A DNA stretch of 52,414 bases from positions 1 through 52,414 of IMG/VR virus record IMGVR_UViG_3300046313_000852; one strand, given 5' to 3'. The first letter of the stretch is position 1. Every line of letters begins with the position of its first letter. A program made the position numbers and the translations under genes. Under the pieces are notes generated by a model, which was not told where the DNA came from, made no database searches, and worked only from the letters and a program-made list of their open reading frames with translations. Origin of the DNA: a virus. Below are positions 6,952-38,131 of the stretch, piece after piece.

Positions 6952-8247
6952 TTATGTCAAGTCAAATATGCCTGTTATAGACTTGCGCTTTGGAAGTGGT
7001 GATTTTTCACCGTACTGTTTTTCTCGGGGATTGAAAATCTTCAATGATTTGGGTTTCCACCCTAGATTGACAATACTCCCGACACCATCAGAACTACGTG
7101 TTTTCAGAAACTGAAAACCGATCTGGCCAGCCGCCCGCATTGCGTCTGTCAAGTGGATAGCTAGACACCAATCTGAACTGCGGATCTTTTCCGCTCCACC
7201 AGCCTGATGACTCTGATCATATACCTCAACGTTCGCTGCACCTTTCGTAAGCTGAGAAGCTGTCAAGCCAATCATGTCATACTCCACAAGCAGATCAATA
7301 AATTCTTCAGTGATAAACTTATCACGAGTGCCGATGTTCTCAGTTGATACCGCCTGAATTGGGTAACACTTGTCGAGGTAGTCTAACACAATAACATCTG
7401 GTACCCACCCACGTTCGATTTCAATCTCTTTGATTAGCGCTCGAATATCATTGGCAGTTGTACCCAACCTCATCTTCTTGATTACTAAATCTCCATGAAA
7501 TTCTGATTGTGCATTCACAATTGCTTGCACATCCTCTACATTTTTATTGACATCTATTGAGCTTTTGTCAGAGATAATCATTTGGGTTCGTTTATCGAAC
7601 ATCTTCTCAGATAGCTCCAACGAGACACACAAACAATTCAAATACTTGCCATTCTCTTTCTGCTTGATCAAATTTAAACCAAAATTTAAAATCGACACAC
7701 TCTTGCCACCGCCAGATATTGCCAATACCAACATCATCTCCGTTCTTGCGATACCACCATCCATCTTCTGATCGAGATCAGCATACCCTGTAGAAAAACG
7801 AGTCACCTGAGCGTCTTGCCCTGCACGTTCTTCAATTTTATCAAAAAACGATATGCCGGTATCCTTATCAACACGAATAGAGATGGCGGTGCGGATTAGT
7901 GATTCTAACTCACCCAGTTTATTATTGATAATCAGTTCAGGTGATTTATCTACAATGATTAACCTGAGTGCTGATTGTTTACAGAACAGCTCCAGCCGCT
8001 CGGTACTAAATTTAATTTGATCTCTAGATAGCTCTACAGTAGGGACATCAACGGTAGTCTCTGTACGGATCATTGTAGAAGAGGGTATACCATTGTAAGA
8101 TACGTAATACTCTTGAATGAAGGAAATTACTTTGCGATATTCTGGATTGAAGTATTGTGGCTTTACGATTGTGGATGTTCGTGCAAATAGATTAGGGTCT
8201 GAAATCCAATGGGATATTAGTTGTAGCTGTTGTTCAGAGTTTAACAT
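6952..8247 (-). CDS. Replicative DNA helicase, DnaB/T4 gp41 family
   Basis: A 431-residue hexameric helicase. The N-terminal helical domain is followed by TGYADLDQKMDGGIARTEMM, the Walker A LAISGGGKSVS (about 176-184), a Walker B strand VIVLDYLDK (about 285-292), the GLTASQLTKGA sensor and a basic QFLKTRSSDG loop. Such helicases unwind the fork 5'-3' with the primase, which in this window is encoded about 40 kb away. Length is close to T4 gp41 (475). A terminator lies directly upstream of the gene, so its transcription starts locally. Confidence 0.93.
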   Translation of the reverse strand: MLNSEQQLQLISHWISDPNLFARTSTIVKPQYFNPEYRKVISFIQEYYVSYNGIPSSTMIRTETTVDVPTVELSRDQIKFSTERLELFCKQSALRLIIVDKSPELIINNKLGELESLIRTAISIRVDKDTGISFFDKIEERAGQDAQVTRFSTGYADLDQKMDGGIARTEMMLVLAISGGGKSVSILNFGLNLIKQKENGKYLNCLCVSLELSEKMFDKRTQMIISDKSSIDVNKNVEDVQAIVNAQSEFHGDLVIKKMRLGTTANDIRALIKEIEIERGWVPDVIVLDYLDKCYPIQAVSTENIGTRDKFITEEFIDLLVEYDMIGLTASQLTKGAANVEVYDQSHQAGGAEKIRSSDWCLAIHLTDAMRAAGQIGFQFLKTRSSDGVGSIVNLGWKPKSLKIFNPREKQYGEKSPLPKRKSITGIFDLT

Positions 8248-8270
8248 TAGTTGTTCGTAGTGGTAATGGT

Positions 8271-8315
8271 AAAAAGCACCAATAAAGCTCGCGTGTCACG
8301 AGCATAGTGCTTTTT
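8271..8315. terminator. Bidirectional terminator with internal hairpin
   Basis: Outer stem AAAAAGCAC/GTGCTTTTT (9 bp) encloses an inner GCTCG/CGAGC stem; U-tracts exist on both strands. It separates the helicase from the gene upstream. Confidence 0.8.
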
Positions 8316-8371
8316 CATAAAGTTGCCAACAGACTATCTGTTGGTTACCAACAGATGTATCTGAGTCAGGT

Positions 8372-12118: not shown

Positions 12119-12415
12119 TTAGTCCATACAATAATCAATGAATCGGCCGGCTAAGTTCCGCGCGCACGCATACCCAAGAGCGTCGATTAGGATAGCCATG
12201 TCGCTACCAAAATGAATATCCGCGTGGTTAATATTTAAATTAGCGAGGTTCACGAGTTTGGATGCATGATATAGCACCAACTCAGCATCAGCGTGTGGAT
12301 GTTCCCTATAGGCGTCATATGAGATCAAAATATCTGCAACCTCAGCCTTTGTTCGGATGGAGTTTACGTAATCTGTCACATAACGAGTCAGAGATAGCAT
12401 TTTGTAGGTTCTCAA
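12119..12415 (-). CDS. Hypothetical protein (98 aa)
   Basis: Helical, soluble protein (MRTYKMLSLTRYVTDYVNS). An alternative start at the second Met would shorten it by five residues. It is the first gene of the early operon that runs to the membrane proteins. No domain recognised. Confidence 0.6.
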   Translation of the reverse strand: MRTYKMLSLTRYVTDYVNSIRTKAEVADILISYDAYREHPHADAELVLYHASKLVNLANLNINHADIHFGSDMAILIDALGYACARNLAGRFIDYCMD

Positions 12416-12436
12416 ATAAGTTGTGGTATAGATCCA

Positions 12437-12465
12437 ATTGTACTCAAATAAACACGAAAGGTCAA
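12437..12465 (-). promoter_or_regulatory. Early sigma70 promoter
   Basis: Minus strand TTGACC, 17-nt spacer, TACAAT, reading into the operon of small membrane proteins. Confidence 0.75.
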
Positions 12466-12483
12466 CACATCACACATACACCA

Positions 12484-12491
12484 CATAAATA
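12484..12491 (+). promoter_or_regulatory. Late promoter box (CATAAATA)
   Basis: CATAAATAGTGC lies 14 nt before the ATG of the N-terminal half of the fractured ATPase. Its CATAAATAGTG context resembles the TATAAATAGTG box that precedes the C-terminal half. Confidence 0.6.
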
Positions 12492-12504
12492 GTGCATCTA
12501 CACT

Positions 12505-13494
12505 ATGAGAACATTTATGAACTTCCTGAAATACTTATCTGAAGGCATCCGAACTGCAGATTTTGCGCGTTCTATTCAACTTATCAAGCAATATCTTGAA
12601 AAATCAACAGGCACCCTATATGCACTCCCTGAGATGGAGCACTACAAAGGCGCCGCCGGCACCGGAATTGGCTTGAGATATTTTACCGAATCAGGTAAGA
12701 GTGTTCGGTTCAACTGGACACGCAGTGACTCAGCGTCTGTACTCGAATCCATATCTGTTTGGGATGGCTCTACCAAGCACCCCAACTTTCAGATCACAGC
12801 TATTGATGGAGCACCACTCGGGACACTATCACTGGCAACCATTCTCCCTACACTCAGTGCTGTGATCGTATCACCAAGAGTTGGTGTGGTTGAATTGTCG
12901 ACTGAAGAGTCGCGTGCTCAAATTGCACTAGATGTAAAGGTGCTCCGCGAATCTGAGAGCGTTTATTACGTGAATACACTATCGAAGTCCCCTGTAATAT
13001 TAACTGAGGATGCGTATAGTGACGTTATTGATGCACTGAGTGCTGGTCCTGTGTCTAAGTTCAACATTTCCAAGATGGGCCGCAACCAAGAACGAATTTT
13101 TGGTGAGATTACTCAGAAGTACAAAGATGCATTTGATATTAAGACAGATGGTGCTGGAAGGCAGAGATTTACACTAATCGGCTCTAGCGCCGACTTTGAT
13201 CGTGACGAAATTGTACAAAGTGTTCTAGATTCCGCACCCAAGAAAGGAAGAGCAGCTTTGGAGGTTCGGAGTGGTGGTGATGAATCGACGAGTACTGATT
13301 CAGAAGATCGTGCAGCACGTGCTTACCCCGAGGCCACACAGAGTCGTATTCCTTATGAAGAGCAATTAGATGATATGAAAACCATCATCACGGCGGTAGC
13401 AAAGGGCGCAAGTAACTTCGCGATTGTATTAGGTGCTGGGGGACTAGGTAAATGCCAAATTGGAACTACAGAATTACTGGGTAAATTTGAGTAA
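12505..13494 (+). CDS. AAA+ ATPase N-terminal half fused to a 13-residue N-intein
   Basis: Residues 1-316 are the N-extein: a candidate capsid-targeting peptide (MRTFMNFLKYLSE|G), a beta-rich region, and the beginning of a P-loop, FAIVLGAGGLGK. The P-loop stops before its Thr. The next residue is Cys and only CQIGTTELLGKFE follows before the stop; an N-terminal Cys is the first catalytic residue of an intein. The missing T and Walker B are found on the other half of the gene 2.8 kb downstream. Trans-splicing would restore GAGGLGK-THTVEE. I infer that neither half hydrolyses ATP before splicing. Confidence 0.85.
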   Translation: MRTFMNFLKYLSEGIRTADFARSIQLIKQYLEKSTGTLYALPEMEHYKGAAGTGIGLRYFTESGKSVRFNWTRSDSASVLESISVWDGSTKHPNFQITAIDGAPLGTLSLATILPTLSAVIVSPRVGVVELSTEESRAQIALDVKVLRESESVYYVNTLSKSPVILTEDAYSDVIDALSAGPVSKFNISKMGRNQERIFGEITQKYKDAFDIKTDGAGRQRFTLIGSSADFDRDEIVQSVLDSAPKKGRAALEVRSGGDESTSTDSEDRAARAYPEATQSRIPYEEQLDDMKTIITAVAKGASNFAIVLGAGGLGKCQIGTTELLGKFE

Positions 13495-13654
13495 ACCCTG
13501 AAAATACTTGCGGTAGCTTGTGGGTATTTGAATAACAAGGTGGGTTCCGAACCCACCTGTTCCTAACATGACAGGTGGATATCCTTAATACCACCTGTTC
13601 CAACCATACCACGAGTAATGTATATTCGGAGTATCCCATCAACCATTAAGTAAT
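13495..13654. other. Twin hairpins between N-intein and endonuclease gene
   Basis: Two inverted repeats, GGTGGGTT/AACCCACC (around 13542-13558) and CAGGTGG/CCACCTG (around 13574-13599), share the GGTGG core. They could end transcription of the N-half or be part of the endonuclease target; neither has a U-tract. Confidence 0.4.
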
Positions 13655-14986
13655 ATGACTACAATCACAAAAACCAAATTGAAAGGTAGGTACGACAGAC
13701 AAGTAACTGTGTACGCTACTCTCACTACACCAGCAGATGTTATCGAGTATTGCATCACCCAGCAATTTTTGAAAGCGGACCAGTGGAAAGGTTGGTATCC
13801 AGAAACCTTACAAAATGTCCAAACGTTTTTGGAATTAGATACCGTAAGCTCCAAGGATGCTGACTTGATGATGCGGTTTAATATATTAAACCCGAATCGA
13901 ACAGCTAGACCCAACAATGTTGAATTTTATATTCGCCGAGGATACTCAACCATAGAGGCTACTGCTCAAGTATCTCAACTACAAAAAAGTAGGAATTCTA
14001 TAAAACAGTTGGAGATGAGCCCCGAATACTGGGTTAGTAAGGGGTATTCCCCAGAGGAAGCACAAAGTACTGCTGATGATAAGCGCAATGGATCCACGAT
14101 TAGGAGACCAGAATATTGGATGAAGCGGGGTTATTCAATCGAGGATGCTCAGAAAAAGGTATCAGATGTTCAGAAATCAGTATCCCCCAAATCAACTAAG
14201 TCATGGATTGATAAGGGACTCCCTGAAGATGATGCTGTCAAGGCGGTTAGTGCGGTTCAAACATATGCAGCTAGCAAGTTGCGCGAGGCTTGGAAATTGG
14301 GTACAATCGACCCTGCTTGTAGTGTACGGAGAATAGAGTATTGGTTAAAAAAGCACGATGGGGATGCGGCAGAAGCAGCAAAAAGTTTAAGTAAGTGGCA
14401 AACTACCTTCTCATTACAGATCTGCATCGAGAAATATGGAGAGGAAAAGGGTACCGCAATATGGGTACAACGGCAGGCAGCTTGGCAGCACTCTTTGAGG
14501 GATCGCTCTGCCGAAGAGCTAGATCAAATCCGAATGTCGAAAGGTTCTGGTAGTGGGAGATTGGGTGGATATGGCCTACTATCACAGTCCATGTTTTGGG
14601 ATATCCACGAACGGCTTACTAACCAACAGTTTGAATATGCTTATTATTTTGCACAACTCCACCCTGATACATTGACTAAGTCACTAGTCGGTAATTATGA
14701 ATATATCATAATTACTCCCAAAAGTGTAATAAAGCCAGACTTCTACATACCGGAGTTGAATTTAATCATCGAATTTGATGAGAAGCATCACTGGCAGACT
14801 ACTAAATTCAAAAACGCAGATGTTGTTCGTACTCAGTTGCTGGTTGAACACTTGGTAGACCCCACTATAATCCGAGTACGCGAGACAGAATATAAAGCAG
14901 ATCCGAAAAAGACTGTGGAGAGGTTAGTTCAAGCTGTTGAACGAGCTGCGGGCTGTCACAAAGCTTTTAGTACTCAGTTCCAGTGA
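13655..14986 (+). CDS. Vsr-like homing endonuclease inside the fractured gene
   Basis: A 443-residue protein. Residues about 105-280 hold degenerate tandem repeats of roughly 25-35 residues built on EYWxxKGYSxEEAQ (for example EYWVSKGYSPEEAQ and EYWMKRGYSIEDAQ), probably DNA-binding. The C-terminus has the Vsr/EDxHD-type nuclease core PDFYIPELNLIIEFDEKHHW. Endonucleases of this family are known to sit between the two halves of genes broken by split inteins, as here. It should cut an intact ATPase allele and spread the whole fracture. Confidence 0.85.
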   Translation: MTTITKTKLKGRYDRQVTVYATLTTPADVIEYCITQQFLKADQWKGWYPETLQNVQTFLELDTVSSKDADLMMRFNILNPNRTARPNNVEFYIRRGYSTIEATAQVSQLQKSRNSIKQLEMSPEYWVSKGYSPEEAQSTADDKRNGSTIRRPEYWMKRGYSIEDAQKKVSDVQKSVSPKSTKSWIDKGLPEDDAVKAVSAVQTYAASKLREAWKLGTIDPACSVRRIEYWLKKHDGDAAEAAKSLSKWQTTFSLQICIEKYGEEKGTAIWVQRQAAWQHSLRDRSAEELDQIRMSKGSGSGRLGGYGLLSQSMFWDIHERLTNQQFEYAYYFAQLHPDTLTKSLVGNYEYIIITPKSVIKPDFYIPELNLIIEFDEKHHWQTTKFKNADVVRTQLLVEHLVDPTIIRVRETEYKADPKKTVERLVQAVERAAGCHKAFSTQFQ

Positions 14987-14988
14987 AC

Positions 14989-15017
14989 AAAAAAACGCCT
15001 TCAAGGCGCTTTTTTTA
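14989..15017. terminator. Bidirectional intrinsic terminator
   Basis: CGCC-TTCAA-GGCG hairpin flanked by A and T runs, placed between convergent genes. Confidence 0.85.
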
Positions 15018-15040
15018 TAACACTCTGCGAGTTATTTAAA

Positions 15041-15643
15041 TCAGAGCTTACCGTTTGGCGTAAATGTCCCCGTCATCGCACCGTGAACATATTCCAGATA
15101 CTGTTCACCATCTCTCGTTACAGGATTACCATCCAGACCTGGTATGGAGCCAACCTTGGCAATCATGCCAGCTTCACAAACCTTACCCACGACAGTGTTA
15201 CCGATAATCTGGCCAGTGATTGATACACCTGCGGGTGATGCCATTCCGATTTTACCGTCAGGCATCACGCCACCCGTAACCGGAAAGTGTTCATCACTAA
15301 ACACTGTGATCCAAGATTTATCTGTCTTCTGCCCATTTGCATCGATTTCAAATGCATAGTGTCCACTCAACCAAATTCCGCCGTCAGGTGAACCTCCGCC
15401 AAGCACAGCATTATCAATTGAGTCGTCTCCTGTCACAGTGTGCCCGTGATTAACGAGACTTGTGTTGCGTGCAGCAATGCGAGCTTCGTGTGAAGGCATC
15501 GTGAATGACCCCACAAGTGTTCCTGGATAATATTTAACGGGCTCGGGAGCGGCGGGGGTTTGAACTTTAGGGCTGAAGTAGCCTAATTTGTACCCACGAT
15601 ATCCCAAGTACCCTAATACGATGAATAAGAATGCGAAAAACAT
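15041..15643 (-). CDS. Membrane-anchored protein, paralog of its neighbour (200 aa)
   Basis: An N-terminal transmembrane anchor (FFAFLFIVLGYLGYRGYKLG) is followed by a Pro-rich linker and a beta-rich domain. That domain shares landmarks with the next gene: LSGHYAFEIDANGQ versus LIGEFSFTIDHTGA, and a final GAMTGTF versus GNMTGEL. The domain is probably exposed to the periplasm. It lies inside the split ATPase locus but on the opposite strand. Family not recognised. Confidence 0.65.
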   Translation of the reverse strand: MFFAFLFIVLGYLGYRGYKLGYFSPKVQTPAAPEPVKYYPGTLVGSFTMPSHEARIAARNTSLVNHGHTVTGDDSIDNAVLGGGSPDGGIWLSGHYAFEIDANGQKTDKSWITVFSDEHFPVTGGVMPDGKIGMASPAGVSITGQIIGNTVVGKVCEAGMIAKVGSIPGLDGNPVTRDGEQYLEYVHGAMTGTFTPNGKL

Positions 15644-15655
15644 ATTAAAATTCCT

Positions 15656-16204
15656 TTAGTTAATGATGGCTTCGTCACACGGAGGGCGGAGCTCACCTGT
15701 CATATTACCTGCAATCAGTTGGTGTGCTCCACAGGCTACACCTGTTAATTTACCATACTTGATTATACCCTCACACGATAACCCATACGATCCATACGCC
15801 AGATGGAATGTTCCGTCATAATTAACCTTGCCGCTGATTATGGTTTCCTTGCGGGTGGTGTGTTGTGTTTTTACCCAACCAGATGTAATTGCTCCAGTGT
15901 GGTCGATTGTGAAGCTGAACTCACCAATCAAGAATACACCTCCGTGCTCCCCCGCGAGACCTGTTGCTGTATTATCAGTGACGTTGCTAATTTTTGGAAA
16001 TGATGGAACGTAGAGGCGCTCACCAAGGTATGCGTCCCTCAGCGATAACAGATAGTACTCATCACTACTTGGTGGACATATCGTACCTTCGACGACTCCT
16101 TGGTGGGGGTTAGTATACTGTGGGATGTGGGTAGGCTCTGGTGGTTGGTTACCTACCCAGAGTGCAGACCAAATACGGCGGGCGATGGAAATAATTGAAT
16201 TCAT
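15656..16204 (-). CDS. Paralog of the downstream membrane-anchored protein (182 aa)
   Basis: Shares the beta-rich domain of the adjacent gene (VFLIGEFSFTIDHTGAITSG, YGLSCEGIIKYGKLTG, IAGNMTGELRPP) but lacks a convincing transmembrane anchor; its N-terminus is amphipathic (IISIARRIWSALWVG). The two probably arose by tandem duplication and are cotranscribed, 12 nt apart. Function unknown. Confidence 0.65.
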   Translation of the reverse strand: MNSIISIARRIWSALWVGNQPPEPTHIPQYTNPHQGVVEGTICPPSSDEYYLLSLRDAYLGERLYVPSFPKISNVTDNTATGLAGEHGGVFLIGEFSFTIDHTGAITSGWVKTQHTTRKETIISGKVNYDGTFHLAYGSYGLSCEGIIKYGKLTGVACGAHQLIAGNMTGELRPPCDEAIIN

Positions 16205-16250
16205 GAGGAGGGATTTTTAATGGCTTCTTATTTAGTAAGCACTGCTGTGG

Positions 16251-16258
16251 TATAAATA
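16251..16258 (+). promoter_or_regulatory. Late promoter box (TATAAATA)
   Basis: Exact T4-type late box followed by GTGATTT, 22 nt upstream of the C-terminal half of the fractured ATPase. Confidence 0.8.
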
Positions 16259-16280
16259 GTGATTTACAGCAGGTACACTT

Positions 16281-17351
16281 ATGCACAATCTCGAAATTCG
16301 TTCCTTCCTTCAATTGGCGGAACACGTAAAACAAAATTTATCAATTGATGAATTAGAATTAAACAAACTATATGACACTCGAGAATTCGATTGGTTGATT
16401 CGCGATCAAGAGAATTGCCTAATTCCTGTGATTGGTCTGATTCGCAAGCAAGCCAAATTAATTGAATTTGAATTTTCTACCGGTGAGACTGTAGTGTGTG
16501 CAGATCATCACATGTTTGCTACTAATGCACGGAATGATGTCATCGTCGCAAGTGAAATGAAGGTTGGTGATCTATTAGCCAAGACATCTGGTGACATCGC
16601 CGTGGTAGTTTCTAAAATTTCCACAGGTGTTGTTAGTGATGTCTATGATATCCAAGTGCAATCTGAGAAGATGTTGTATAGCGACGCCGCAGGTTTTGTT
16701 CACCACAATACTCACACTGTTGAGGAAACTCTTCAAAATCTAGGCTTATCAGACGGCGATGGTTATTTTAAGAACACTTCATCAGGATCTGCTGCTGGTC
16801 TATACAAGACACTCTTTATGAATCGTACTGGAATTGTGGTTCTTGATGATTGTGACACGATCGTATCTACCCAAGAAGGTCGCAACTTACTGAAAGCTGC
16901 ACTGGATACTAAGAAGAAGCGTAAATTAGTTTGGGCGAAGGCTGCGTCGTGGTTGTTCGATCCAGCTGACGAAGCCCTCATGGGTGATGCACTGGATGCT
17001 GTTGATTCTGGAATGGAGCCTGAGAAGTTTCCACGATATTTCGACTTCGAGGGTCGTGTAATATTGATCAGTAACTTATCACCTGACGTGCTCGATCCCG
17101 ATGGTGCACTCGCCACACGAGGATTTATCATAACACTAGACCCCACAAAGGCTGAGGTGTTTGCATTCATGCGTAAGATTGCTCCCAACATTCCAATCGA
17201 GGGTACTCTCACACTCGAAGAGCGAATGGCAGTAGTCGACTTGATAGAGAAACAGACAGGTGCTGTTAATATCAGAAAATTGGTACGCGGGATGAACCTG
17301 GCGGCTTCGGGGGTTCCAAATTGGGCTCGATTGGTTGAGCGCTACTGCTAA
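16281..17351 (+). CDS. C-intein (143 aa) fused to the C-terminal half of an AAA+ ATPase
   Basis: Residues 1-143 are a split-intein C-part. They carry the block B-like TGETVVCADHHMFA, a KVGDLLA turn, the block F strand VYDIQV and the terminal AGFVHHN with the catalytic Asn143. Thr144 is the +1 nucleophile and also the P-loop Thr. The C-extein (213 residues) supplies Walker B (GIVVLDDCD), a sensor-1 strand (VILISNLSPD) and an arginine segment (LATRGFIITLDPT). With the upstream half this gives an AAA+ ATPase of about 529 residues. It has its own late promoter. Confidence 0.85.
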   Translation: MHNLEIRSFLQLAEHVKQNLSIDELELNKLYDTREFDWLIRDQENCLIPVIGLIRKQAKLIEFEFSTGETVVCADHHMFATNARNDVIVASEMKVGDLLAKTSGDIAVVVSKISTGVVSDVYDIQVQSEKMLYSDAAGFVHHNTHTVEETLQNLGLSDGDGYFKNTSSGSAAGLYKTLFMNRTGIVVLDDCDTIVSTQEGRNLLKAALDTKKKRKLVWAKAASWLFDPADEALMGDALDAVDSGMEPEKFPRYFDFEGRVILISNLSPDVLDPDGALATRGFIITLDPTKAEVFAFMRKIAPNIPIEGTLTLEERMAVVDLIEKQTGAVNIRKLVRGMNLAASGVPNWARLVERYC

Positions 17352-17438
17352 AAGCTAAAGTGTTTATTGAGCGGGGAACTACACTAAGGTTAACCCTGCT
17401 CTATTCTATTGCACATATCATAATTACAATACCACCAT

Positions 17439-17446
17439 TATAAATA
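17439..17446 (+). promoter_or_regulatory. Late promoter box (TATAAATA)
   Basis: Exact T4-type late box upstream of the adhesin/virion operon that runs to about 21.9 kb. Confidence 0.8.
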
Positions 17447-17495
17447 GTACACATATGTGCACTGAAATGAAAATTAGTATGAAAGATACCACCAA

Positions 17496-18020
17496 ATGAA
17501 ATTATATGGTTATACCCGAGCAACAGCGTTACCTACCTCTCCTGATGTGGGTCAGATTGTATTTTTATCAGTCGATGGTTTGACAGGGACACTACAACAC
17601 TGGGACGGTAGTGCCTGGGTGCTCGTTGGTGGTACTCCACAATTATTGAGTATTGTTGGTGATCAATTGACATTATCTGGCGGAGGTGGGTCTGTTACAC
17701 TGCCAACGTTCTCATGGCGTGAAGTCGTGAATAGTACAATTGTTGCCCCTATGGACGTCGCAAATGGAATTGCTGTGAGCAATTCCAGCGCCACTACAGT
17801 CACGATACCTCTCAATTCTGCTGTACCAATTGCAGTAGGATCATCTGTGTTGGTAGCTGCTGATGATGTTGGTACAGTGACACTGGTACCGGCTAGTGGT
17901 GTTACGCTACACGTCGGAAATGGTCTGTCCACTACTCTGTTGGGACAGTACTCTGTAGTAACACTTATCAAGCGATCACCTGATGTTTGGTATGCGGCTG
18001 GAGACTTCGCTACACCATGA
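17496..18020 (+). CDS. Putative tail fibre or virion protein (174 aa)
   Basis: MKLYGYTRATALPTSPDVGQ followed by FLSVDGLTGTLQHWDGSAW resembles N-terminal regions of phage tail-fibre accessory proteins. The rest is a Thr/Val/Ser-rich beta structure. It is the first gene of a late operon and overlaps the next gene by ATGA. Confidence 0.65.
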   Translation: MKLYGYTRATALPTSPDVGQIVFLSVDGLTGTLQHWDGSAWVLVGGTPQLLSIVGDQLTLSGGGGSVTLPTFSWREVVNSTIVAPMDVANGIAVSNSSATTVTIPLNSAVPIAVGSSVLVAADDVGTVTLVPASGVTLHVGNGLSTTLLGQYSVVTLIKRSPDVWYAAGDFATP

Positions 18021-18376
18021 AGACTTCTCTCCATGGAATCTTAGCCGATAGGCGAGAACTCACAGTAAGTGAATTCTTCACCAGTTCACTCTATGGATTT
18101 GAGATTAGTGATACTGCGTCTATAGGGCTACCTGGAGTGATATCTGGAAGTCTACCACCTTATGGGCTGGCTGAAGACACAGGTAGTATTGGACTACCAT
18201 CTATCGCATCAGGATCACTGGTTGATCTAATTATCAATACAAATATTGAAGACACAGGTAGTATTGGACTACCATCTATCGCATCAGGATCACTGGTTGA
18301 TCTAATTATCAATACAAATATTGAAGACACAGGTAGTATTGGACTACCATCTATTATTTCTGGAACATTAATTTAA
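18017..18376 (+). CDS. Repeat protein with shared MKTSL N-terminus (119 aa)
   Basis: The start at the ATG overlapping the previous TGA gives MKTSLHGILADRREL, matching the N-terminus of the RCC1/LRR protein (MKTSLAGILNRRR). It is followed by a degenerate and two identical copies of a 25-residue unit (EDTGSIGLPSIASGSL...) and a final partial copy. The repeats look like short beta strands with Gly/Ser turns. A virion adaptor or fibre role is inferred from position. Confidence 0.6.
   Translation: MKTSLHGILADRRELTVSEFFTSSLYGFEISDTASIGLPGVISGSLPPYGLAEDTGSIGLPSIASGSLVDLIINTNIEDTGSIGLPSIASGSLVDLIINTNIEDTGSIGLPSIISGTLI
18173..18355 (+). repeat. Tandem 75-bp coding repeat
   Basis: Two perfect 75-bp units (18173-18247 and 18248-18322) and a 33-bp partial third copy. 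Identity at every base suggests very recent duplication or ongoing slippage. Confidence 0.95.
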
Positions 18377-19894: not shown

Positions 19895-21919
19895 ATGAAA
19901 ACATCCCTTGCTGGTATTTTGAACAGACGTAGAGTAGTTTCGGGTGTAGTGAATAATCTATTATTTGGACTTGGAGCTAACTGGTTTAACAATATATCAA
20001 CATCCAACACTCAATTTTATACCACTCCGTACCAAGTTGATAATTCAGAGTGGATTTCAGTTAGCAATGGTATACATTCAGCCTACGGAGTTAGATCTGA
20101 CGGGACGCTATGGGCTTGGGGACAGAATTCAGGTGATGATTTTTTAGCAGTAGGCAACATCAATCCTACTCACCCACTACAAGTCGGTTCAGATACTGAT
20201 TGGGCGAAAGTGGTTGGCTCTCAGTATGGTGCTTACGCCATCAAACAAGATGGGGCGCTGTATGCGTGGGGAGAGGATTCGCAAGTACTAGGTTTCGGCA
20301 ATACACAAATCAATGTAATGACTCCGTCACTCCTACCAGGAACCTGGTCGCATATCGCCGCAGCACAAGTTGTCACACTAGGTATCAAAACAGACAATAC
20401 CCTGTGGGCTTGGGGATCTGATTCGTATGGAGTGTTAGGGACAGGTGTAGAAGATGTTGGATTGTGGTCCCCAACACAGGTAGGGACCTCCACATGGAAT
20501 ACCGTCGACATGGTTAAAGATATGAGTATCGGGATTCAGTCAGATGGAACCATGTGGTCGTGGGGTAGGTGGAATAATGGTGCAACTGGGAATGGTGGTA
20601 CTACTGACATCACGGAATCACTACCAGTCCACATTGGTGTTGGGTATACGTGGTCACGTGTAGCTTGTGGAATCCAACACAAGCTGGCTATTAGATCTGA
20701 CGGAACCCTGTGGTCGTGGGGGTCAGGTGATTTGGGAGTACTAGGGTTGGGAGACCTCATCAATCGATATGAACCAACCCAAGTGGGTACAGACTCTGAT
20801 TGGGTCTTTATTAAAGCAGGGTGGTACTTCTCTAGTGCACTAAAGGCTGATGGGTCGCTGTGGGTTTGGGGCGAAAATGTTCAAGTTATGTCCGATGGTT
20901 CAGATTATGCTGCGGTCTTAATACCAACTAAGATATCAAAAGGACCATACAAATTTATATCTCACAGTATATCGATTGAACCTGAGACATTTTTGCTTAC
21001 AGGGACTAACACACTGCCGGTAGCAATTGCGTTCAATGCAATTGCTACTTTTTCGTTGGGTTACGATATTAGCAATTACACAACCATTGAGTTCAACGGA
21101 TTATTCAATGTGGTGCAGACCACTGTTGTTAACATAACCGCCAATGTTGCAGAACTGAATTTTTTAAACTCTAATGCGATAACTTATGGTAGTGGGTCTG
21201 GTGCGCCATTAGTTGAGTTAACACTAACTGAAGCTCAGGTTACCCAACCATCAGCTTTTAATGGTATTCCTACGCTACAGAAGTTCACGTGCAATACAAT
21301 GTCTACAATCGCAGCGAGCACCTTTCAACAGTGTGCCAGCTTACAGACAGTCATTCTTCCAGCAGTGAGTACAATTGGCACTCAAGCATTTGTTGGTTGT
21401 ACGGCATTAGATCTAGATCTTAGTGATTTTTCATCGTGCGTTGTCATCGAGGCTCAAGCATTTAGTGGATGCACTGCACTCACACCACACATCACCACCC
21501 AACACTTTCCAAGTTTAACTCATCTCGGTAAAGGTGTGTTTAGTGCATCTAGTGTAGGTAGAATTGAGTTGCCTACAGTGACGAGTGTTGACACCGATGG
21601 GCCAATATTCACTTCTGTTGGGCACATCCAGCTCAACGGACTTAGCTCAATACAAGGAACCTCTTTTGTGTACTGCACATCTTATATACTGGAGTTTGCG
21701 GGCTGTGTGAGTGTTGGGGATTATGCATTTGCAAACTGGAGTCCTGTCGGTGCTGCATTGTCGTGGTTATATCTACCGGTCGTAACCACTTGGGGCAATG
21801 ATGTATTTCATGGAGTCTCCGGATTGTCAGTTACTCTCACTATCCGCACAGATCAACAGAGTAATCCAAATGTATTATATCTTCAGGCGAATAATGATGT
21901 TACCTTGGTGTTAGTGTGA
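19895..21919 (+). CDS. RCC1 beta-propeller plus BspA-type LRR adhesin (674 aa)
   Basis: Three parts are visible. Residues 1-25 (MKTSLAGILNRRR) match the N-terminus of the repeat protein upstream. Residues about 50-350 contain at least six RCC1-type blades ending in DG(T/S)LWxWG (SDGTLWAWG, QDGALYAWG, TDNTLWAWG, SDGTMWSWG, SDGTLWSWG, ADGSLWVWG). Residues about 430-650 form BspA-like leucine-rich repeats (STIAASTFQQCASLQTVILP, IGTQAFVGCTAL, IEAQAFSGCTAL). Both folds are protein- or glycan-binding scaffolds, and position at the end of the late virion operon suggests a receptor-binding or tip protein. Confidence 0.8.
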   Translation: MKTSLAGILNRRRVVSGVVNNLLFGLGANWFNNISTSNTQFYTTPYQVDNSEWISVSNGIHSAYGVRSDGTLWAWGQNSGDDFLAVGNINPTHPLQVGSDTDWAKVVGSQYGAYAIKQDGALYAWGEDSQVLGFGNTQINVMTPSLLPGTWSHIAAAQVVTLGIKTDNTLWAWGSDSYGVLGTGVEDVGLWSPTQVGTSTWNTVDMVKDMSIGIQSDGTMWSWGRWNNGATGNGGTTDITESLPVHIGVGYTWSRVACGIQHKLAIRSDGTLWSWGSGDLGVLGLGDLINRYEPTQVGTDSDWVFIKAGWYFSSALKADGSLWVWGENVQVMSDGSDYAAVLIPTKISKGPYKFISHSISIEPETFLLTGTNTLPVAIAFNAIATFSLGYDISNYTTIEFNGLFNVVQTTVVNITANVAELNFLNSNAITYGSGSGAPLVELTLTEAQVTQPSAFNGIPTLQKFTCNTMSTIAASTFQQCASLQTVILPAVSTIGTQAFVGCTALDLDLSDFSSCVVIEAQAFSGCTALTPHITTQHFPSLTHLGKGVFSASSVGRIELPTVTSVDTDGPIFTSVGHIQLNGLSSIQGTSFVYCTSYILEFAGCVSVGDYAFANWSPVGAALSWLYLPVVTTWGNDVFHGVSGLSVTLTIRTDQQSNPNVLYLQANNDVTLVLV

Positions 21920-34507: not shown

Positions 34508-34583
34508 TGGTTGCGGATGGAACGATTTGAACGCCTCCTTGAGGTTATGAGCCTCGTGTGCTGCCGGATTACACTACACCGCG
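34508..34583 (-). tRNA. tRNA-fMet-like (CAU)
   Basis: Anticodon loop CTCATAA in a GAGG/CCTC stem, T-loop TTCAAAT, A73 and CCA encoded. The unpaired C1/A72 at the top of the acceptor is the hallmark of initiator tRNA. The acceptor has two further mismatches and the T-stem is irregular, so activity is uncertain. Its 5' half overlaps the end of the HNH gene. Confidence 0.75.
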
Positions 34584-34587
34584 ATAA
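34557..34587 (-). repeat. 31-bp direct repeat, copy A (tRNA-fMet 5' half)
   Basis: Identical to 35362-35392. The two copies flank the HNH gene, whose stop codon lies within this copy. Confidence 0.95.
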
Positions 34588-35296
34588 CTTTTAATTTACT
34601 TACAGATTTCCGTAGAAAATAACCCGTTGGTGGTTTTGTTAATTCCCACTTTTTTACCCAACGATTCACGCCATTGTCTGACATATTATACTTTTTACCA
34701 ATTTTTGTTAACGGTATCTTCCACAATAATTCTTGCAATTCCTCTTTTGTAAAGTTTGCTTTTATAGGTTGTGGAATATATGGCGGCTTCTTTGCAACTG
34801 GTGAGTTCAATTGGGTTTTATTCCTACCAGCAAATGTGGTGGTTTGACTATGACAATTCGGACATAAGAAGCACAAATTTTCTAATCTGTGATCAGTTCG
34901 TACTCCATTCTTGTGTTCTAGTTGTAAAGTAATGGGAGTACCTTGCCAAATTGGCCCCATATCACAATTTACACATTTGTATTGTAGAACACCTTCCTTA
35001 ATCAAACGCTTTTTCAAAGACGAACGGTCATAATTCGTGGATTCTATTAATATTTCTGACAGTGGGCGGCCGGTAGATCCATTTCTTGTCTGAGGTCTAT
35101 TTAAGTGAGGATCGAAATGTGAAATATCTATCCCATACTTCGCAACATATTTCCTAAATGTAACAGCATTTGATGCAGGAGTAAGCCCCAGCTGTCTTAA
35201 TACTTCACTCATTGAGACCGATTTTTTAATCAACTCCTCCAACATTTGGCGATTATGCCAATCTACTTTAAAACTACCTCTTTTTATATTGACCAT
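34574..35296 (-). CDS. HNH homing endonuclease
   Basis: A 240-residue protein with N-terminal helices (MVNIKRGSFKVDWHNRQMLE, a MSEVLRQLGL turn), then LQYKCVNCDMGPIW (zinc-binding CxxC), LQLEHKNGVRTDHRLENLCF (the EHxNG...N HNH core) and LCPNCHSQTTTFAGRN (second CxxC). Its end (NMSDNGVNRWVKK) is a helix-turn-helix. It is a freestanding mobile endonuclease inserted at tRNA-fMet. A CATAAATA late box lies upstream. Confidence 0.9.
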   Translation of the reverse strand: MVNIKRGSFKVDWHNRQMLEELIKKSVSMSEVLRQLGLTPASNAVTFRKYVAKYGIDISHFDPHLNRPQTRNGSTGRPLSEILIESTNYDRSSLKKRLIKEGVLQYKCVNCDMGPIWQGTPITLQLEHKNGVRTDHRLENLCFLCPNCHSQTTTFAGRNKTQLNSPVAKKPPYIPQPIKANFTKEELQELLWKIPLTKIGKKYNMSDNGVNRWVKKWELTKPPTGYFLRKSVSKLKVIAV

Positions 35297-37282: not shown

Positions 37283-38131
37283 TTGACACCTTCACAACAA
37301 TCGGATATTAAAATCATACAAGATTTTGTAAAAATGCATCAACGATTGCCTACGTACACAGAAAATACCAAGACTATTGGATTTCCTAATGGCGCATATT
37401 GGCGAAAGAATTTTGGTACATTCAAAAACGCTTTAACTATGGCAGGGTATACTAATAATAATGGTGTTAAATTGACAGAGACATTTGCATGCAGTTGTTG
37501 CCACACTGAGTTTACACTAGTAGGATCCAAATTGTCCAGTCATAAACAAACAAATAGAGGGGACACACATTTTTGCTCTAGAACTTGCTCCACCAGGTTT
37601 ACAAATCTACGGCGAGGCCCAAAGACAGAAGAGGTTAAACAGAAGATAAAACAGTCTGTTCAACGATACAAAGACTCTGTACCAAATCCAAAGAGATTAG
37701 TAGCGGCGGGTCCACATAGCAAGTTGGTTACATGTAACTGTGCACACTGTAATCTGAAATTTGCGTCGCGACTCCGCCGCAAATATTGCACAAGCCATGT
37801 GGATATGTACAAGAGCAACAATCGAAATCAATATGCTTTTACTTTTGGTCTTTCTGATCATCCCACACTATTTCCCAACCTTGTTGAGTTATTAACAACA
37901 TATGGTGTGTGGAGCTATACAAATACAACTGGCATCACCAGAGATCACCGGATTTCTGTCAATGAATCAATCAAAAACGGCTACGACCCATATTATATCA
38001 AACACCCCATCAACTGTGAACTTATGAGTTGGAGCGATAATAACAAAAAGAAGACTCGGTGCTCAACCACTTATAGTGAACTTGTTAAAGCGGTTGATGA
38101 ATATGATAAAAACTATAACTCTTGCACTTGA
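37283..38131 (+). CDS. HNH homing endonuclease (282 aa)
   Basis: Contains two Cys4-type clusters (CSCCHTEF with HFCSRTC, and CNCAHCNLKF with KYCTSH) and the HNH core GITRDHRISVNESIKNGYDP followed by HPINCELMSWSDNNKKK. A helical region with RRGPKTEEVKQKIKQS, reminiscent of NUMOD3, separates them. It is the only plus-strand gene in the tRNA cluster and lies between two copies of an Asn-Glu tRNA unit. Confidence 0.88.
   Translation: MTPSQQSDIKIIQDFVKMHQRLPTYTENTKTIGFPNGAYWRKNFGTFKNALTMAGYTNNNGVKLTETFACSCCHTEFTLVGSKLSSHKQTNRGDTHFCSRTCSTRFTNLRRGPKTEEVKQKIKQSVQRYKDSVPNPKRLVAAGPHSKLVTCNCAHCNLKFASRLRRKYCTSHVDMYKSNNRNQYAFTFGLSDHPTLFPNLVELLTTYGVWSYTNTTGITRDHRISVNESIKNGYDPYYIKHPINCELMSWSDNNKKKTRCSTTYSELVKAVDEYDKNYNSCT

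Follow-up and report, generated by a model that had tools for sequence, protein, structure and literature searches.

How can a phage make a working ATPase from a gene that is broken within its P-loop and whose halves lie 2.8 kb apart? The question is raised by positions 12,505 to 17,351 of the virus record IMGVR_UViG_3300046313_000852, which was analysed over its full length of 52,414 bases (the window). The window comes from an uncultured T4-like phage, and its T4-like gene set includes a T4 RNA ligase 1 homolog, a Toprim-like primase and, by our reading, a gp41-like helicase. In this locus the Walker A motif of an ATPase gene is interrupted as GAGGLGK/T, between Lys316 and Thr. The most probable answer (probability about 0.88) is that the Walker A motif of this NrdC.10-like ATPase harbors a natural split class-1 intein, with Cys1, a block B His, a terminal His-Asn and Thr+1, which is split at S1 and rejoins the halves by trans-splicing, and whose N-part (IntN) forms a cassette with an endonuclease. 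Two further IMG/VR contigs, both independent, carry the 4847-bp locus without a single mismatch.

The N-half open reading frame (ORF; 12505-13494, plus strand) encodes 329 amino acids (aa), 316 of extein and 13 of intein, and its 3' end reads ...NFAIVLGAGGLGK-CQIGTTELLGKFE followed by the stop. The N-extein (12505..13452) comprises the 316 N-terminal residues of the ATPase up to the Walker A lysine (GAGGLGK). The C-half ORF (16281-17351, plus strand) encodes 356 aa, 143 of intein and 213 of extein. It opens with MHNLEIRSFLQ and crosses the intein/extein junction as ...AAGFVHHN-THTVEETLQNLG..., so that the C-extein (16710..17348, stop 17349-17351) begins THTVEE, with the Walker A Thr as +1 nucleophile. 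No start codon lies between the upstream stop and the ATG at 16281, and therefore the C-half cannot begin elsewhere. In three intact, intein-free homologs (L031, L032 and L052) the gene is one frame, which reads ...GAGGLGKTHTVEETL... across the break site with GAGGLGKTHTVEE uninterrupted, and the junctions of the split gene match them exactly. Identity to these homologs is 53-56% for the N-extein and, in L031 and L032, 77-79% for the C-extein. Once the 13 tail residues of the N-half and the 143 head residues of the C-half are taken out, the ancestral protein of 529 aa is recovered, with no residue gained or lost. Since the intein-free homologs run through GAGGLGKT, an intein has been added at the break and no part of the gene is missing. 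The uninterrupted gene is found at lower identity in twenty further loci (L006-L025), and the same fracture recurs in a diverged relative (L005/L030/L035); in L005, as here, an endonuclease gene is flanked by two separate extein-intein halves.

By sequence, the joined gene belongs to the T4 NrdC.10-like AAA+ ATPases (phrog_1250). This family is matched by the intact homolog L031 (E=7e-27) and by the C-half of the window (E=3.6e-20), and the gene, in which an AAA-type P-loop is present, also matches nrdC.10 of Acinetobacter phage Ac42. The initial annotation of this DNA had described a fractured AAA+ ATPase with a P-loop split before its Thr, a tail of Cys and 12 further residues, and a 143-residue C-part ending in HHN before Thr. 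ORFs, frame and coordinates agree with it to the base, and the comparison with intact phage homologs that it had suggested gives exactly the expected 529 aa.

The intein C-part (IntC, 16281..16709, plus strand) harbors a block B sequence (CADHHMF), a YDIQV stretch and the terminal GFVHHN, and its first strand corresponds to b3 of the HINT fold. It matches the Pfam intein splicing domain PF14890 at E=0.00087, below the curated cut-off; the N-terminal strands of this domain sit on the other protein. An AlphaFold2 model of IntC alone, built from five natural sequences, has a mean predicted local distance difference test score (pLDDT) of 80.6. Foldseek searches with this model returned 48 PDB matches at E<=0.001, in which intein and intein-like structures reach a probability of 1.00; gp41-1 ranks first and VidaL ninth, and DnaB is also matched. 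When a profile of the joined intein family was compared to the PDB, VidaL was the top match (E=2.6e-8). The search with the single IntC sequence was weak, and the five-row profile was required for the VidaL match. IntC is thus predicted, from sequence and model, to have a HINT/intein fold. Its residues H77 of block B, D123, G138 and F139 of block F, the penultimate H142 and the terminal N143 are invariant across the five IntC sequences, Thr+1 is present in the window and kept in L005, and the class-1 catalytic positions are all retained in both. The split intein that had been proposed initially is therefore supported, as one of class 1, by the catalytic residues, the Pfam match, the IntC model and the VidaL profile.

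IntN consists of the 13 residues CQIGTTELLGKFE (13453..13491, plus strand), with the Cys1 codon at 13453-13455 and the stop at 13492-13494, which confirms the length first given for it. Its counterparts are 14 aa long in contig 3300046336_000166 (CLDPNSELAGVFGE; loci L003 and L028), 17 in L029 (CQLGTTNLIGSWGICGV) and 20 in L005 (CASSAVLLNGSFKNWEKSLA). The four tails share C-x4-[TSV]-x-L-x-G-x-[FW], Cys1 being retained in all of them. Comparison with the contiguous intein of Serratia phage Kevin, placed by eye, locates the split within the loop that links b2 and b3, so that the split site appears to be S1, directly after beta strand 2. The IntN of natural early-split inteins has 15-35 aa, with 16 aa in VidaL and 15 aa in PolB16 OarG at S1 (PMC13014065), and 15 aa has been called the shortest characterised natural IntN (PMC10189870). 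The remark in the initial annotation that such short N-parts are rare is thus fair. The 13-residue IntN is shorter than the natural ones in these two papers, a ranking as "shortest" being limited to the open literature. As an artificial 11-aa IntN fragment of M86 splices (PMC13014065), a length of 13 aa is chemically plausible.

The proposed mechanism is that two precursors, of 329 and 356 aa, would be made separately, and that the IntN tail would dock on the 143-residue IntC as the missing first two HINT strands. Attack by Cys1, chain transfer to Thr+1 and Asn cyclisation would then yield an ATPase of 529 residues whose GAGGLGKT is whole again, Lys316 being joined to Thr. Neither half holds a complete P-loop, and therefore no active gene product is expected unless the halves are spliced. 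Nonsynonymous (dN) and synonymous (dS) substitution rates point to purifying selection on IntC (dN 0.40 and a saturated dS of 2.43 against L005) and on the N-extein, which differs from that of contig 3300046336_000166 by synonymous changes only (dN 0, dS 0.11). These two comparisons were used; that of the N-extein with L005, which is saturated, was excluded, one L005 boundary being misplaced by a few codons. Therefore, ATPase and intein both look functional.

The gap between the halves contains a putative Vsr/EDxHD-like homing endonuclease of 443 aa (13655-14986, plus strand). Its N-terminal region is made of repeated YW..G.S.EEA units, followed by a TFSL-CIEKYGE module and a C-terminal nuclease domain (PDFYIP...IEFDEKHHW). 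The TFSL-CIEKYGE module is also found near other phage genes; in Caulobacter phage Cr30 it is 55% identical over 74 residues and lies beside the large terminase gene. The Pfam matches of the endonuclease (MTES_1575, PvuRts1I-like and DUF559) are weak and below cut-off, and its sequence match to AbaSI has E=0.009. These matches, and weak sequence and fold matches to AbaSI/PvuRts1I and I-Bth0305I/Vsr, point to the Vsr-like homing endonuclease that had been suggested for the gap at the outset. Beyond it, the gap holds two minus-strand, non-nuclease ORFs that had been overlooked: R1 (15041..15643), of 200 aa with an N-terminal hydrophobic segment, and R2 (15656..16204), of 182 aa and 28% identical to R1 over 88 residues. 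Neither has a match in Pfam, PHROG or NCBIfam. Among viral contigs R1 is found only in this ATPase fracture, and it has no match in isolated phages. The compact relative L005 has the fracture without R1 and R2. In L029, a contig that stops before the C-half, the endonuclease gene is inverted within the same fracture (7049-8323) and R1 is present. Just after the IntN stop, the region 13538-13600 forms two strong hairpins, GGTGGGTT-ccg-AACCCACC and ACAGGTGG...CCACCTGT. Their fold z-score is -2.9, equalled by 1 of 200 shuffles, and they are absent from the allele in contig 3300046336_000166.

In that contig, N-extein, IntC and C-extein are retained and the IntN is a different one, of 14 aa. DNA identity to the window is 97.8% up to position 13454, which lies within the Cys1 codon, and reaches 99.6% from 14955, in the last endonuclease codons. 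Between these points it is about 40-60%, and the endonuclease proteins are 40% identical. The last 24 N-extein bases, which are P-loop codons, contain 6 of the 24 synonymous differences of that extein (changes at 13431-13449); the hypergeometric probability of this cluster is 1.4e-5, and a scan over all positions gives P about 0.003. The segment exchanged (13431..14955, plus strand) thus comprises P-loop codons, IntN and endonuclease. As it spans from the P-loop and Cys1 codons to the endonuclease end, IntN and endonuclease moved together, without IntC, in this case. This is most simply explained if another IntN and endonuclease segment was copied in, along with P-loop codons, from a different phage and IntC was left in place. 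The gene break, intein and endonuclease had been taken initially as one mobile unit, which is too simple: in the one recent exchange that can be seen, only IntN and endonuclease are swapped, IntC and its neighbours being 99.6% identical in DNA, the gap carries two extra non-nuclease genes, and the endonuclease is inverted in L029.

As for the cause of the exchange, the free-standing endonuclease would most likely cut the P-loop codons of related alleles during co-infection, and repair of the cut allele would copy in the IntN and endonuclease segment, which would in this way be swapped as a cassette, with the IntC remaining as it is. Both the cleavage site and the role of homing are presumed here. 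We tentatively propose, at less than even odds, that the mobile cassette consists of the endonuclease and the tiny IntN, homing replacing these, with 13-20 intein codons, while the resident IntC takes different tails. If this is true, the early split lets the endonuclease bring its own interchangeable splice donor. Pressure on the IntN would then favor shortness and promiscuity, and this would account for a length below that of the natural IntNs characterised in the two papers cited. It is unlikely that, instead, the whole unit of IntN, endonuclease, R1, R2 and IntC moves together and the observed exchange is secondary. Intein-free homologs have none of this unit at the site, and therefore the first invasion must have brought both intein parts, either split already or contiguous and split afterwards. 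However, R1 and R2 are missing from the fracture of L005, the orientation of the endonuclease differs in L029, and in contig 3300046336_000166 IntN and endonuclease alone were replaced.

Some points weigh against the splicing and exchange proposed here. The trans-splicing of the two halves is something that we infer. The tails of the window and of contig 3300046336_000166 have few positions alike and stand opposite an identical IntC, so that one of the pairings might be inactive. Confidence in the endonuclease model is low (mean pLDDT 67.6), and its fold matches to AbaSI, PvuRts1I, I-Bth0305I and Vsr have probabilities of 0.38-0.99 at Foldseek E>0.05. No second contig with the exchanged junction was found, and since just a single contig carries the allele, its different IntN and endonuclease could be the product of a chimeric assembly. 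This is rather improbable, as the breakpoints sit at the intein/P-loop junction on the left and at the endonuclease gene end on the right, synonymous changes cluster in the adjoining P-loop codons, and the replacement still has a valid Cys1 tail and codes for an endonuclease that is intact.

A decayed locus, in which endonuclease insertion would have broken the gene and left non-splicing intein remnants, with the ATPase dispensed with or its halves associating non-covalently, has little chance of being the right explanation. The IntN is unusually short and variable, as would suit decay, and in a ribonucleotide reductase a free-standing endonuclease insertion left the gene in pieces and yet functional, with no splicing involved (cited in PMC10448857). 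However, IntC and N-extein are under purifying selection, and every catalytic residue is retained in a relative whose IntC is 55% identical. In addition, the Walker A motif is incomplete in each half, a defect that the halves would not easily repair by pairing non-covalently. Rejoining at the RNA or translation level (trans-spliced intron, frameshift or bypass), for which the strong hairpins at the gap start might speak, can be dismissed almost entirely, as a search of 12300-17600 gave no group I or II intron or other Rfam RNA at E<=0.1, the C-half starts with an intein C-part predicted to fold as HINT, and the 2.8-kb gap has genes on either strand.

Dassa et al. reportedly described in 2009, from a phage metagenome source, fractured genes in which split inteins occur together with Vsr-like endonucleases. 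The present locus resembles them in a gene broken at a conserved site, intein parts on the halves and a free-standing Vsr-like endonuclease in the gap, and differs in the NrdC.10-like gene, the two opposite-strand non-nuclease genes and the replacement of IntN and endonuclease against a constant IntC. The arrangement is therefore known in kind, and what is new is the very short IntN and its exchange, together with the endonuclease, against a constant IntC. VidaL (PDB 6vgv), the best profile match of IntC, is likewise naturally split after beta strand 2 and Cys-dependent, but its IntN has 16 aa against 13 here, and identity in the structural alignment is 24%. PolB16 OarG shares the natural S1 split and a very short IntN (15 aa, PMC10189870), whereas its splicing is cysteine-independent, with Ser1/Ser+1 in place of Cys1/Thr+1. 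A mini-intein in the terminase (TerL) of Serratia phage Kevin (PP869623), 32% identical to IntC, is also inserted in a P-loop (SGK/C...SHN/T), but it is contiguous and has no endonuclease inside. The nuclease domain fold resembles that of the EDxHD homing endonuclease I-Bth0305I (PDB 3r3p; target template modelling score 0.60, probability 0.89, from the low-confidence model), which differs in that the window endonuclease has the long N-terminal YW-G-S-EEA repeat array; phmmer gave no sequence match between the two. In other uncultured phages, UvsW-like helicase genes are fractured at the P-loop (GSGK/C...HHN), with an IntN of 29 aa in L045 and 44 aa in L046, and L047 contains a TerL C-half with an IntC. 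In these three loci, the C-half is directly preceded by the gene of a related endonuclease. The intein was also sought in bacteria as a possible source, and no relative appeared in a scan of genome contigs.

A 13-residue IntN is easily reached by peptide synthesis, and if splicing is efficient, the intein would be of practical use in labelling proteins at their N-termini, the junction being Cys/Thr in a P-loop context. The allele pair, one IntC with two unlike IntN tails, is a natural test of how little the IntN must specify, and the exchange boundaries are direct base-level evidence on what the endonuclease moves in a fractured gene.

T4-late-promoter-like sequences precede both halves: CATAAATA (12484..12491, plus strand) lies 5' of the N-half and also of the homologous gene in L005, L031 and L032, and TATAAATA (16251..16258, plus strand) lies 5' of the C-half ATG. 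The motif alone was rejected as evidence, with 4 occurrences of TATAAATA in the window against 2.8 expected; since this is no enrichment over chance, only its conserved placement upstream of the gene counts. A promoter of its own would be needed by the C-half once minus-strand genes part the halves. The window encodes two further probable homing endonucleases (34574-35296, minus strand, and 37283-38131, plus strand), with weak HNH and HNH_repeat (PF18780) matches, and both have a late-promoter-like CATAAATA upstream.

Downstream of the locus, the ORF at 17987-18376 contains a 75-bp in-frame tandem repeat (...EDTGSIGLPSIASGSLVDLIINTNI...; 18172-18354) in 2.4 perfect copies. The same repeat has at least 3.7 copies in contig 3300046336_000166 (L028, 11543-11819) and thus varies in copy number; it is likely a tail or adhesin repeat. 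Downstream of the repeat ORFs, positions 19895-21919 encode a 674-aa protein with RCC1 repeats and BspA-type leucine-rich repeats (Pfam), which shares with them the start MKTSL.GIL and looks like a tail-associated recognition protein.

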